32,852 bases of DNA, from positions 1 to 32,852 of the IMG/VR virus record IMGVR_UViG_3300025117_000176. One strand, 5' to 3'. This DNA is from a virus. Under the pieces are notes generated by a model. That model had not been told where the DNA came from and did not search any database. It worked only from the letters and a program-made list of their open reading frames with translations. Of the stretch, positions 3,907 to 32,852 are shown one piece after another (within the stretch, counting starts at the first letter, position 1; every line of letters starts with the position of its first letter). A program made the translations under genes and the position numbers.

Positions 3907-4899
3907 TTAAGTAGGCGCTGTGATGCTTTCGCCGTTCATTAGATGGTTATTGATCCAGGCGTCATCCGTGCCCGCGGTGTTGAAGTCGTCGTAGTCGCCA
4001 TTGGCGGCGGCGGGCAGAACACAACTCAGCCAGTTGTCAGACACAATGTTTTCTATTCCGCCCGTCAGGTTGATGCCTTCGTCCGCGACGGCTGCCACTT
4101 GGTTCGCGGCCACCTGGTTATAGATGCGGTTGGCATAGATCGCGGAGTTGTCGGTATCTTCTGCGAAGATGGCGAATTGCACGTTGTTGAACAAGTTTCC
4201 GTGAATGACGTTGTAAGCCGAGCCGCTGCCCGCTGTATCCACAAAGATACCGTATTCCAGGGCATGAGCGCCGTGGAAGATATTCTCGTGGATATCGCAA
4301 TACCAGGCATATTCCATTTGCACGCCAACGGCGCAGTTATAGAACGTACAGTTGCGCACGGTCATATTGTCGCCAAAGGCCGGGCCGCCGTCCCACAGGG
4401 CATAGATTGCACGCGTGCCGGTGTAGGTGTCGGTGTCGAAGATGAAGCCTTCGATGGTCACATCCACGGCGTTGACGGTGATGAGCGTCTGGCTGTTTGC
4501 GGTAGGCTGCCAGACCACGCCAAGAGAGCCAGCGGGGTGCACGCCAACGATGCGCACGCCGGGGCAGTTCACGGCCACGTTTTCGGCAATTGGGGTGGCG
4601 TACCCGTCAGTCGGGTCGCCATACTGCCAGGCGTTGTTTGCCATGACTGCGATGACGTCCCCGCGGAACGCTTCGCACTTGAGCAGCGCCGCGCCAATGG
4701 TAGACAGGGGGCTTTCTGGGTTGGTTCCGTCACGGTTATCGTTGTTGTCAACATGGTTCGGGTCAACCCAGAAAATCGTACCGGTGCAACTCTGGCGGAG
4801 GCCCCGATCGGAGTCTCCGCCAGGGACACCAGTTTGGCCTGGATACCAGGGCGTCAGGCGGGTGAGGGGCAAAGGCCATTGAACATTTGATCCAGGCAT
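3907..4899 (-). CDS. Right-handed beta-helix virion protein (tailspike/appendage-like), copy 2
   Basis: 330 residues from ATG at 4899, AAAGGAG 7-8 bases upstream. After a short N-terminal segment (PGQTGVPGGDSDRGLRQSCTGTIFWVDPNH) comes a region with regular beta-strand turns rich in Asn and hydrophobics: DVTIEGFIFD, NMTVRNCTFYNCAVGVQM, YCDIHENIFHG, AYNVIHGNLFNNVQFAIF, NSAIYANRIYN, NIVSDNWLS. This is the pattern of a right-handed parallel beta-helix of the pectate-lyase/tailspike type. The N-terminal ~60 residues are homologous to those of the next gene upstream (4912-6435). No enzymatic residues can be assigned. A virion spike or capsid appendage is likely because it lies within the structural operon next to the capsid gene. 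Confidence 0.75.
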   Translation of the reverse strand: MPGSNVQWPLPLTRLTPWYPGQTGVPGGDSDRGLRQSCTGTIFWVDPNHVDNNDNRDGTNPESPLSTIGAALLKCEAFRGDVIAVMANNAWQYGDPTDGYATPIAENVAVNCPGVRIVGVHPAGSLGVVWQPTANSQTLITVNAVDVTIEGFIFDTDTYTGTRAIYALWDGGPAFGDNMTVRNCTFYNCAVGVQMEYAWYCDIHENIFHGAHALEYGIFVDTAGSGSAYNVIHGNLFNNVQFAIFAEDTDNSAIYANRIYNQVAANQVAAVADEGINLTGGIENIVSDNWLSCVLPAAANGDYDDFNTAGTDDAWINNHLMNGESITAPT

Positions 4900-4911
4900 A
4901 GTTACACTCCT

Positions 4912-6435
4912 TTAGATTGCCACGACAGTTGCGCCAACGTTGAGCGGCACATAGACCACCGTCCATTGCACGCGCCCGCCGCCGCCGTCAGAGCCGTTGC
5001 AGTCAATCGAGATGTTGCCAACGGGCAGCACCACCTCGGTAGCCTGCTTTGCGACCGGCACGGTGATAGCGGTGTCAACCATTGCATTGGCGAAGGTGCC
5101 GGTGATGCTGTAACGCGTTCCGGCCACGTCACCAGTCACGTCAAAGTCAGCGCAGAGCGCCGTTGTGCCGTGGATGATTTGGGTAGCGTTTGGAACCGCG
5201 CCGATGTCAACGGTAACCGTTCCGATGATTTGCTTGATCAGCACATTGCCGCCCGCGACCGTGAACAGGTTCAGCGCGGCGGTCTGTGGCAGGGCGCTCG
5301 TTACGCGGTCAACCACCAGGCCATAGGCCGCCTGGCCCAGGGCATCGTTGGTGAAGGTTGCAACGTCAATCGCGGCGTTGGCAATCGCGGAGGCGTCGAT
5401 TGCGTCATTGGCGATTGCCGTAGCGTCTATTGCGCCAGCCGCAAAAGCATCCGCGGCGATTGCGCCCACCGCGATTGTGTCAGCGTCAATCGAGCCAGCC
5501 GGAAGCGGCCCCGCGGCGGTCGCCGGGATGGGCACTGCCGATTGGTCAATGGCGTCGGTCGCCATGTTGTCGGCGCACATCAAGCTGCCCGGATCAAAGC
5601 AGGTCGCCAGGGCGTCAGCGTAGAAGCGGTTGCCGATTGCCATGCCGGTTGCGGCGGCGCTCAGTTCCACTGCCCAATCGCCAGCGTTGACGTTGCGGAT
5701 GTAGTTACCGGTCAGCAGCATGTTGGTCAGGATTGAGCCGGAATGGATACCCGCGACCGCATAGTCGCCCGTGATCCAGTTGCCGACGATCTCAACGCCG
5801 TCCTGAACTGCGCCAATCTCGATTGCATGATTGGCCCCGGCGGCTTCGGAGATGAACTTGTTGCCGTAGATTTTGGCGCGGTCGGCCAGGTTGGCCCCGC
5901 CGCCGTTGATATCCACCGCCGTGAGCCATTGCATGGCCACGGCGGTATTCTCGCGCAGCTCGCAGTTGCGCATCGTGAAGTCGTCGGCGTTGACGTCAAT
6001 CATCACGGCCACGCTGTCAATGCCCACCAGGAACAGGATGTTCTCGATGGTGACATTGGCCGCGCCGATTGCAACGGTCGAAAGGGCATTCGTGAAGGTG
6101 ATGCGCGGGCGGTTCTGGCCCGTGCCAACGCCCAGGATATAGACGCCAGCCATGTCGCAGTTGATAGCCGCAGCGGTGGCAATGCTTTCGGCGTGGCCTG
6201 AGCCGACGATAATCCAGTCGTGACGGTTGGCGACGCACTTGCCAATCGCCCCGTCGATCGTGGTCAATGGATAGTTAGGGTCGGTGCCGTCATGGTTCGC
6301 GCCAGTGTTCAGGTGCGTATTATCCACATAATACACATTGCCCTGCGCGACGGTGCGCAGGCCCTGCGAAGAGTCGCTGCCCGGCACGCCCATTTGCCCA
6401 CCAAACCAGGGGGGGAGTTTAAGTTGTGGTAGCAT
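4912..6435 (-). CDS. Right-handed beta-helix virion protein with decapeptide repeats, copy 1
   Basis: 507 residues from ATG at 6435, AAAGGAG 8 bases upstream. Residues 1-65 (FGGQMGVPGSDSSQGLR...VYYVDNTH...DGTDPNYPLTTIDGAI) match the start of the adjacent beta-helix protein. Residues ~75-290 carry parallel beta-helix turns (NVTIENILFLVG, DFTMRNCELREN, GVEIVGNWITG, NMLLTGNYIRN, GMAIGNRFYAD). Residues ~313-372 are six decapeptide repeats of the type AGAIDATAIA. Residues ~375-507 form a separate beta-sandwich-like C-terminal domain ending in a Gly-rich loop and VQWTVVYVPL. The layout of helix, flexible or trimeric repeat stalk and terminal domain resembles tailspikes and capsid fibres. Cellular target is unknown. 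Confidence 0.75.
   Translation of the reverse strand: MLPQLKLPPWFGGQMGVPGSDSSQGLRTVAQGNVYYVDNTHLNTGANHDGTDPNYPLTTIDGAIGKCVANRHDWIIVGSGHAESIATAAAINCDMAGVYILGVGTGQNRPRITFTNALSTVAIGAANVTIENILFLVGIDSVAVMIDVNADDFTMRNCELRENTAVAMQWLTAVDINGGGANLADRAKIYGNKFISEAAGANHAIEIGAVQDGVEIVGNWITGDYAVAGIHSGSILTNMLLTGNYIRNVNAGDWAVELSAAATGMAIGNRFYADALATCFDPGSLMCADNMATDAIDQSAVPIPATAAGPLPAGSIDADTIAVGAIAADAFAAGAIDATAIANDAIDASAIANAAIDVATFTNDALGQAAYGLVVDRVTSALPQTAALNLFTVAGGNVLIKQIIGTVTVDIGAVPNATQIIHGTTALCADFDVTGDVAGTRYSITGTFANAMVDTAITVPVAKQATEVVLPVGNISIDCNGSDGGGGRVQWTVVYVPLNVGATVVAI
5326..5499 (-). repeat. Coding decapeptide repeats (about six copies)
   Basis: The segment encodes residues ~313-370 of the long beta-helix protein. 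Units are AGSIDADTIA, VGAIAADAFA, AGAIDATAIA, NDAIDASAIA, NAAIDVATFT, NDALGQAAYG, a 30-base period at DNA level. Ala/Ile/Asp decads of this kind are common in phage tail-fibre stalks. The central copies are the most alike. Confidence 0.75.
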
Positions 6436-8001: not shown

Positions 8002-8598
8002 TTAGGCCAGTTCACGGCTGCCGTTGAAGAGCAGCACGCAAAATTCCTGTTCAACTTCTGAGTTGAGCAAGGTTGTATCAAAGGTAGCCGCCAGGTTGGG
8101 GCCACCCACGCCGCTATCGGCGTATTCGTCTTGGCAGTACCACAAAACGCCTGCCTGCGGGTTCTTGACGCCGGCACTGTTCAGGGGCGAGAAGCTCAGG
8201 GTGACGCCTTCGCTGAGTTGGGCGCTGTCGTCCACGTAGACGGGATAACCGGGTACAAGGGTCGTCTCGTAGGTTTCGCCGCCATAGGTCAGGTGGTTGT
8301 TGACAATCTGCCGAACGATGAAGCCGTCAGCAATGTTGACGCGCACCAGACCCAACGGGACGGTTAAGCCGGCGGTGAAACTCACCACAACGCCGGTAAG
8401 GTTTAGCGGGCGGCCCAGGGCGGCAGTACGTCCGCCGATGGCTACCACGGGGTGCAAGCCCTCATCAATGGCGTCTTTCGTGCCGCTGATTGAGTTATCG
8501 GCGATAGGCCAGATATCCGACTCGTGGACTTGTACAACCGTGTAAGGCCCGCTGGACTGTTGCCAGTCCGTTCCTGCGAAAAATGTTTCGTTTGCCAT
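8002..8598 (-). CDS. Putative capsid decoration protein, copy 2
   Basis: 198 residues from ATG at 8598 behind AAAGGA. It is a beta-rich protein and a clear paralogue of the neighbouring 203-residue protein, sharing blocks such as HESDIWPIADNSISG, HPVVAIGGRTAALGRP, VRVNIADGxIVRQ, SPLNSAG and the last residues LLFNGSRELA. Placement between prohead protease and major capsid protein is typical for head cement/decoration or minor capsid subunits. No motif shows enzymatic function. The role is inferred from position and abundance of beta structure. Confidence 0.7.
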   Translation of the reverse strand: MANETFFAGTDWQQSSGPYTVVQVHESDIWPIADNSISGTKDAIDEGLHPVVAIGGRTAALGRPLNLTGVVVSFTAGLTVPLGLVRVNIADGFIVRQIVNNHLTYGGETYETTLVPGYPVYVDDSAQLSEGVTLSFSPLNSAGVKNPQAGVLWYCQDEYADSGVGGPNLAATFDTTLLNSEVEQEFCVLLFNGSRELA

Positions 8599-8625: not shown

Positions 8626-9237
8626 TTAAGCCAACTCGCGCGAGCCATTGAAGAGCAGCACGCAGTAAACCTGCTCGGTTGCGGCGTTGGGTAGTGATAC
8701 GTCAAAGGGGCTGGTAATGTTCGGGCCACCCACACCGCTGTCGGCATACTCATCCTGGCAATACCAGAGCACGCCCACCTGGGGGTTTTTCAGCCCGGCG
8801 CTATTGAGCGGGGACATGCTCAGGGTGACGCCGTTGCTCAGGTCGTCGCTGTCGTCAGCGTAGACCGGCAGGCCGGGGATAGGGGCGGTCTGGTAGGTGG
8901 CCGGGTTGCCGCCGTTGTAGGTCAGGATGTTGTTGACATACTGGCGCACGATGTAACCATCGGCAATGTTGACCCGCACGGTGCCCAGGGCGGTCGTGCT
9001 GCCCGCGGTGTAGCTCAATACCACCCCGGTGATGTTCAAGGGGCGACCCAGGGCGGCGGTGCGGCCACCAATCGCCACGACGGGGTGCTTGCCAACCCCG
9101 ATGGTGTCCTTGACGCCGCTGATAGAGTTATCAGCGATAGGCCAGATGTCAGACTCGTGGCACTGGACAACGGTCAGCGGGCCGCTGGCTTGTTCGTAGT
9201 TCGTATCGGTGTAGAGATAGGTAACGCTTGCGGTCAT
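8626..9237 (-). CDS. Putative capsid decoration protein, copy 1
   Basis: 203 residues from ATG at 9237 with AAAAGGAG upstream. It aligns almost end to end with the next gene (8002-8598); the differences cluster in the first ~20 residues, a central loop (TYNGGNPATYQTAPIPGLP against TYGGETYETTLVPGYP) and near residue 180. Both end with the identical LLFNGSRELA. Two copies in tandem suggest a duplication that now supplies two related capsid surface subunits, or a heteromeric cement. Function is inferred. Confidence 0.7.
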   Translation of the reverse strand: MTASVTYLYTDTNYEQASGPLTVVQCHESDIWPIADNSISGVKDTIGVGKHPVVAIGGRTAALGRPLNITGVVLSYTAGSTTALGTVRVNIADGYIVRQYVNNILTYNGGNPATYQTAPIPGLPVYADDSDDLSNGVTLSMSPLNSAGLKNPQVGVLWYCQDEYADSGVGGPNITSPFDVSLPNAATEQVYCVLLFNGSRELA

Positions 9238-32158: not shown

Positions 32159-32852
32159 TTACCACTCACCCACCGCCGCCGCAAAAATACAGCGTGCGGA
32201 CTTGCGTGCGTGCGGGCAGGGGCATCTGGCACACCTTCTGGCAGTGGGGGGGGTAGTTGTCATCTCCACTGCCAAGATATTGCGCCCAATCCACTCAACT
32301 ACCTGTGGAACTACGGCGTTTCCGAGTGATTTAAGTCTGTCCACCCGTCCGGGAATCCCATGAGCCACTCGACCCACCGGGGGTTCAATTGCCCACCACG
32401 TACCATTTCTTTCAGTTGAAATCCGCCCATCCTCCCCGGCGGCTTGTGGTATGCCGGGCCGCCGGTTGCGTCGCTGCTCTTTGGCGTCGGAAATAATTTC
32501 ACCGCTCCCGATAACTTCAGTGCAATTCTGCCGTGACTGTTCTGATAATCCCCGCGAGACACTTGCGGCGTCGGCCACATATCCAACTCCCCCACCCGCG
32601 CCATGCCCTGAAGAGTCGGTATCTCGTTCTTCCTGTCCCCGCTCCGGCTGCTCCCCCCGCCCTTGCTGGAATCTGTCGGCGTGGGCAACAACGAAGACTC
32701 TCTCTCGCCTGTGCGGGGCATCGAAGGCGCAAGCCGGAATAACAATCGCCCCTGTGGTGTATCCCAAATCATCCAGGTCAGATAGCACCTGGTCGAGAAT
32801 AGTCGTTCTGATTCCAGGCACATTCTCACCAAGCACCCAACGGGGTCGGCAT
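32159..32852 (-). CDS. DNA (cytosine-5) methyltransferase, C-terminal part (5' end outside window)
   Basis: About 231 codons are visible and the frame is open at the window edge. RPRWVLGENVPGI holds motif IV (ENV); PHRRERVFVVA holds the QRRxR-type motif; WWAIEPPVGRVAHGIPGRVDRLKSLGNAVVPQVVEWIG holds the final GN motif of C5 methyltransferases. Between them is the variable target-recognition region. The last ~30 residues are Cys-rich (CARCPCPHARKSARC). It would methylate cytosines, probably to protect phage DNA from host restriction. The +1 frame of the same stretch (32832-32311) is also open and carries PTP repeats and LNPRWVEWLMGFPDGWTDL, itself typical of phage methyltransferase C-termini. 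The N-terminal catalytic part is not visible. Confidence 0.85.
   Translation of the reverse strand, partial: CRPRWVLGENVPGIRTTILDQVLSDLDDLGYTTGAIVIPACAFDAPHRRERVFVVAHADRFQQGRGEQPERGQEERDTDSSGHGAGGGVGYVADAASVSRGLSEQSRQNCTEVIGSGEIISDAKEQRRNRRPGIPQAAGEDGRISTERNGTWWAIEPPVGRVAHGIPGRVDRLKSLGNAVVPQVVEWIGRNILAVEMTTTPPTARRCARCPCPHARKSARCIFAAAVGEW

Follow-up and report, generated by a model that had tools for sequence, protein, structure and literature searches.

For M.EcoHK31I, Lee et al. reportedly found in 1995 that the small-chain gene lies within that of the large chain in a different reading frame and that activity requires both chains. The large chain of this enzyme carries motifs I-VIII and X and the small chain carries motif IX only, with the target-recognition domain predicted to lie in the large chain (PMC3404938). 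In M.AquI, motifs I-VIII belong to the catalytic chain and motif IX to another chain, and in single-chain C5 methyltransferases target recognition and motif IX are held by the small domain (PMC3404938).

Here we analyzed a virus record of 32,852 bases (the window), the final gene of which lies on the minus strand and runs past the contig end. Two other pairs of adjoining minus-strand genes were observed in the window. The genes at 8002-8598 and 8626-9237 encode very similar proteins (common ESDIWPIADNSISG...HPVVAIGGRTAALGRPLN), an apparent tandem duplication. Those at 3907-4899 and 4912-6435 encode possibly paralogous surface or tail proteins with similar N-terminal regions, which have in common the pattern GQ.GVPGxDSxxGLR... 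followed by VDxxH..x..N.DGT(N/D)P..PLxTI.

Two coding frames in the final gene

The final gene is open in two frames on the minus strand, and the peptides quoted for each frame in an earlier note on this sequence are present. Frame A (32159..32851), the putative alpha subunit of a C5-cytosine DNA methyltransferase, is open for 230 amino acids up to the contig edge, and frame B (32311..32850), a nested +1 gene for the putative beta subunit, is open for 179 amino acids up to the same edge. Profile searches matched frame A to Pfam DNA_methylase PF00145 (E 8.4e-13) and phrog_363 (E 2.6e-36), and frame B to phrog_1008 of PHROGs (E 2.1e-26); both endings are natural protein types, as the note had stated. 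No family in Pfam or NCBIfam was matched by frame B. Analysis with PADLOC matched frame A to methyltransferases and frame B to nothing. Judged from relatives, truncation at the contig end costs frame A about 110 codons (motifs I-IV) and frame B its start and N-terminal ~60 codons. The absence of a start and ribosome-binding site for the +1 frame, which the note had correctly remarked upon in the window, is accounted for by this missing N-terminus; relatives have both signals.

Direct reading of frame A in the window revealed motif VI (ENV, 32819..32827; E-N-V is invariant in alignments A2 and A4), the motif VIII region (HRRERVFVVA, 32684..32713; the A family aligns to M.HhaI 6-180) and motif X (GNAVVPQ, 32303..32323; LGNAVVPQ is conserved in the A family), and relatives display motifs I-VIII and X. 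Frame B contains three PTP blocks, all on the minus strand. The first (LLPTPTD, 32671..32691) reads VVAHADR in frame A, the synonymous sites of which are strongly constrained there in relatives; the second (WPTP, 32566..32577) and third (FPTP, 32482..32493) were read directly and in B alignment A3. They are followed by a motif-IX-like segment, LNPRWVEWLMGFPDGWTDL (32332..32388), that is nearly invariant in the same alignment. The middle of the overlap (32393..32674) occupies the position of the target-recognition domain, and in relatives this stretch is neutral and predicted to be disordered in frame A and constrained in frame B.

Synonymous codons of frame A were permuted 200 times with the A protein fixed, and frame B was scored with a +1-frame hidden Markov model trained on other loci. 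Frame B of the window was open in 0 of 200 shuffles (mean of 4.0 stops) and scored 196 bits in the real sequence compared with a mean of 35 and a maximum of 76 bits after shuffling. Examination of 12 loci gave real scores of 196-303 bits against shuffled means of 35-92 bits, with shuffling placing 2 to 9 stops, on average, into frame B. The converse result, obtained with the frame B protein fixed and the effect on A followed, was likewise true.

Selection was then resolved by frame. Third-base synonymous conservation of frame A was close to expectation upstream of B (z 0.4-4.5) and downstream (about 0); inside B these sites were strongly conserved, z reaching 81 at motif IX. Omega was estimated from 18 independent close pairs, each substitution being classified by what it changes in A and in B. 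The omega of B was 0.96 upstream of its start and the overlap, as for an unconstrained frame, and inside the overlap it was 0.23 over motifs IV-VIII, 0.17 (0.11-0.34) in the middle and 0.06 at motif IX. The omega of A was about 0.1 everywhere except in the middle of the overlap, where A is near neutral: B-nonsynonymous changes gave 0.91 (0.72-1.24) and B-synonymous changes 0.62 (0.40-1.10). Two coarser tests agreed with these estimates: there was hardly any extra conservation at B third positions in the overlap middle, and in a looser pair set the most variable codon position shifted from A third to A first (B third) in the middle and motif IX zone. Taken together, the shuffles and substitution rates demonstrate that frames A and B of the window are both real protein-coding sequences and not a product of chance, and that the locus carries two products, as the earlier note had allowed. 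In homologues, apart from a few rearranged or broken loci, the +1 frame stays open and is under purifying selection, with neither the stop codons nor the relaxed selection that the note had named as grounds for abandoning it.

Start signals, distribution and rearrangement of the pair

Start signals of frame B were compared in 77 loci. As a rule the strongest candidate lay 7-18 codons upstream of the PCQ motif of frame A, upstream of motif IV and well upstream of the variable region, and in most loci the open frame of B began just upstream of this candidate. At the best start, 71/77 loci matched the Shine-Dalgarno sequence over at least 4 bases and 55/77 over at least 5, compared with 5.4% of start codons in other frames with a match of at least 5; the counts take the best of several candidate starts, which inflates the figure somewhat but not to the extent observed. 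The start codon and ribosome-binding site that B possesses in relatives indicate that it would be made by internal initiation, with no need for a frameshift.

The same A/B pairing was identified at about 160 viral and 90 bacterial loci, in phages and prophages of many bacterial phyla, with both proteins under selection. A tblastn search with B returned 111 phage records at E<=1e-3. Natural proteins with the +1 sequence, whose absence would have counted against the earlier note, were found in databases; some carry the annotation 'internal gene', as in Paenibacillus phages such as Diva, in which this label assigns the nested ORF to the methyltransferase. All B proteins of our alignment (43/43) matched phrog_1008. 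In nearly all of the 80 viral contigs fetched with B, both frames were open across the overlap and the two end motifs were conserved. At 80 loci from bacterial genomes, spanning Firmicutes, Proteobacteria, Bacteroidetes, Acidobacteria, Chloroflexi and others, B was paired with A and nested in its +1 frame in all but four rearranged or broken loci. Among about 600 sampled genomes, B was present in 4/299 and 13/299, each fetched hit being nested in a methyltransferase. No freestanding B gene was detected in the 80 bacterial contigs from one scan and these sampled genomes. Since these locus sets had been chosen by B, 80 more viral loci were fetched using the A N-terminus alone, a query that lies outside the overlap. 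Seventy of the 79 complete loci carried B over threshold. Seven of the remaining nine were read, and all seven displayed a divergent B-like +1 frame, one of them shortened; these divergent partners carry motifs such as SETWPxSGMMxNG and MMGFPxGWT. B was found in none of 30 canonical single-chain C5 methyltransferases. The intact pair, as opposed to one or other of its members, is retained in all loci except a few that are rearranged or broken.

The neighboring genes of the few relatives examined were phage replication, terminase and similar genes, and no restriction partner was identified among ten neighboring proteins of three relatives, a sample too small to be decisive. Because of this phage gene context, the enzyme is likely to be an orphan protective methyltransferase, one that in phage probably shields the phage DNA from host restriction. 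One Roseovarius chromosome assembly (OX638333.1) contained five copies of the methyltransferase locus with equal match scores (L117-L121).

Several loci were rearranged. At L132 (2272-3571, from a Bacillota genome), an apparent duplication of the IX/X block was followed by in-frame fusion of the nested gene to motif X, and the ORF of the catalytic chain stops after motif VIII. Mycobacteriophage MeeZee also has a B that runs on in frame into motif X and an A that ends past motif VIII. Here (L084, 1559-2654) gp78 represents the motif I-VIII half and gp77 the B-plus-motif-X half; the two lie in different frames with a 23-base overlap and are both annotated as DNA methylase. Indels switch the frames of C-terminal blocks at L123 (2200-3260), L126 (2310-3300) and L152 (2160-3180), and L152 looks broken, with stops in frame B.

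Probable division of functions between the two chains

Frame A of relatives aligned with M.HhaI over residues 6-180 (motifs I-VIII) and weakly over 299-318 (motif X); motif IX was not aligned. The predicted structure of frame A from a relative was confident over the large domain and disordered at residues 181-264, and superposed on M.HhaI with a Z score of 22.5 over 182 aligned residues and on M.HaeIII with a Z score of 21.1. This limited alignment and the disordered segment indicate that A has no small domain. The window gene therefore departs from the single-chain PF00145 layout, with the recognition domain and motif IX absent from the chain that carries motifs I-VIII.

Frame B provided the complementary features. 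Its best local profile match to canonical C5 methyltransferases was exactly motif IX (LTPRECARLQGFPDSFR compared with LNPQWVEWLMGFPTGWT), a weak match (E 0.1) that gains support from the location of this segment just upstream of motif X, the genetic position of motif IX, and from the in-frame fusions to motif X in L132 and MeeZee. The middle PTP-block region varies strongly between loci; this suggests that recognition specificities probably differ from locus to locus. Target recognition is probably located in B, as judged from frame-specific selection in the overlap middle (omega 0.17 for B, 0.91 for A). The N-terminal half of B has no known counterpart among C5 methyltransferases. Modelled alone, frame B gave a structure of low confidence (pLDDT 60.6), for which Foldseek returned no match below E 0.001, and sequences in the Protein Data Bank gave no relevant match to B or to the L132 and MeeZee B proteins. 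A poor solo model would be expected of a partner-dependent chain but does not confirm one. Evidence for B at the level of protein was not found.

We consider it very probable that A and B are the two chains of one C5-cytosine methyltransferase and form an obligate pair, A being catalytic and B contributing recognition and motif IX. The computed results are that both frames code and are under selection, that B has start signals of its own inside A, that the motifs of A and B complement each other and that the two constantly occur together. From these we infer that the chains most likely assemble physically, that activity most likely depends on B, and that B probably recognizes the target. The large catalytic domain, with motifs I-VIII and X, would be formed by the alpha chain, in which a stretch that is neutral and flexible takes the place of the target-recognition domain and motif IX. 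The beta chain would be translated from an internal start with its own Shine-Dalgarno sequence, just upstream of the alpha PCQ motif, and would supply an N-terminal part overprinted on alpha motifs IV-VIII, the variable PTP-block region, which is probably the target-recognition part, and motif IX. The two chains would then assemble into the active enzyme.

Other readings of the locus were weighed against the same data. The earlier note had proposed that alternative target-recognition ends are chosen by frameshifting, so that recognition is swapped by a change of frame; a programmed shift from A to B would then yield an additional methyltransferase that differs in C-terminus and specificity. 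B is indeed in the +1 frame of A throughout the overlap and has a plausible motif IX, and the indels at a few loci (L123, L152) join the N-terminal half of A in frame with motif IX. However, B is preceded by a Shine-Dalgarno sequence of its own and starts upstream of motif IV, and in most loci its ORF opens just ahead of that start. Its coding signal spans the whole overlap including motifs IV-VIII, where selection on B would be needless for the product of a late frameshift, and that product would be without motif X. The two ends look like complementary parts of one enzyme, one with motif IX and the other with motif X, and the intact pair is kept. Based on the start-site, selection and co-occurrence evidence we rejected frameshift-selected recognition ends, which we regard as very unlikely. 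We also rejected, on the basis of the shuffles and frame-specific rates, the reading in which only A is translated and the openness and similarity of B are a shadow of A protein constraint and codon bias. Part of the similarity is indeed such a shadow, since shuffled A genes still score 35-92 bits as B-like; however, across the 12 loci real B scores lie ~11 or more standard deviations above the shuffles (maximum 140 bits), the synonymous constraint on A stops at the ends of B, and the overlap middle is constrained in B and neutral in A. The probability that we assign to this reading is negligible.

Alternatively, B might be a true overprinted protein that has only its DNA in common with A and serves another purpose, such as regulation, anti-restriction or nuclease activity. 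This would be in keeping with its want of a Pfam or NCBIfam family and of a fold match, and with an N-terminal half unlike any known C5 methyltransferase. This is nevertheless unlikely. A is without motif IX and a folded small domain, and B has a motif-IX-like end where motif IX is expected genetically; in the loci examined B always occurs together with A and never alone; at L132 and in MeeZee it is joined to motif X; and M.EcoHK31I provides a biochemical precedent (PMC3404938). Beyond the two-chain enzyme itself, we lean towards a broader proposal, namely that a widespread class of cytosine methyltransferases in phages has its whole specificity module (recognition and motif IX) in a second frame of the catalytic gene, that the catalytic chain keeps a neutral disordered linker, and that the specificity chain gained an N-terminal part over motifs IV-VIII.

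Implications and comparison with described enzymes

Two constrained proteins on about 200 shared codons represent an unusually clear and large natural case of dual coding. If the specificity module does lie in a second frame, specificity could evolve in one frame with the other holding catalysis unchanged, and alphas might swap their beta chains. Annotation pipelines record one frame or the other, so most such enzymes appear in the records as a methyltransferase by itself; a protein expressed from frame A without B would probably be inactive or unspecific. The PHROGs database labels phrog_363 and phrog_1008, matched by window frames A and B respectively, both as 'DNA methyltransferase', and the shared DNA and probable status as two subunits are not stated there. 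A search of the open-access literature did not find a paper describing the nested phage gene, which is a weak negative. What is new here is the breadth of the arrangement, its absence from Pfam and NCBIfam, and the evidence for target recognition in an overlapping frame.

Frame A superposes on the large domain of M.HhaI and M.HaeIII, but in those enzymes the recognition domain and motif IX are in the same chain. The arrangement of M.AquI (CYCGRG) is resembled by L132 and by MeeZee gp78/gp77, where motifs IX and X are both in the second chain; in contrast, motif X remains with the catalytic chain in the window and nearly all relatives, whose second gene is nested and not serial. L132 may represent a possible route between EcoHK31I-like and AquI-like arrangements. 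Of the enzymes characterized so far, the naturally two-chain M.EcoHK31I (YGGCCR) is the closest, a likeness in motif layout and gene organization: its large chain carries motifs I-VIII and X without IX, as does frame A of relatives, and its small gene reportedly lies in another frame inside the large one, as does the nested +1 ORF in the window and almost all loci. M.EcoHK31I belongs to a restriction-modification system, whereas the few relatives examined here sit among phage genes. The recognition domain is placed in the large chain of M.EcoHK31I by published prediction and in the small chain here by selection; frame-specific selection thus makes a concrete, testable claim on the site of recognition that departs from the M.EcoHK31I prediction.
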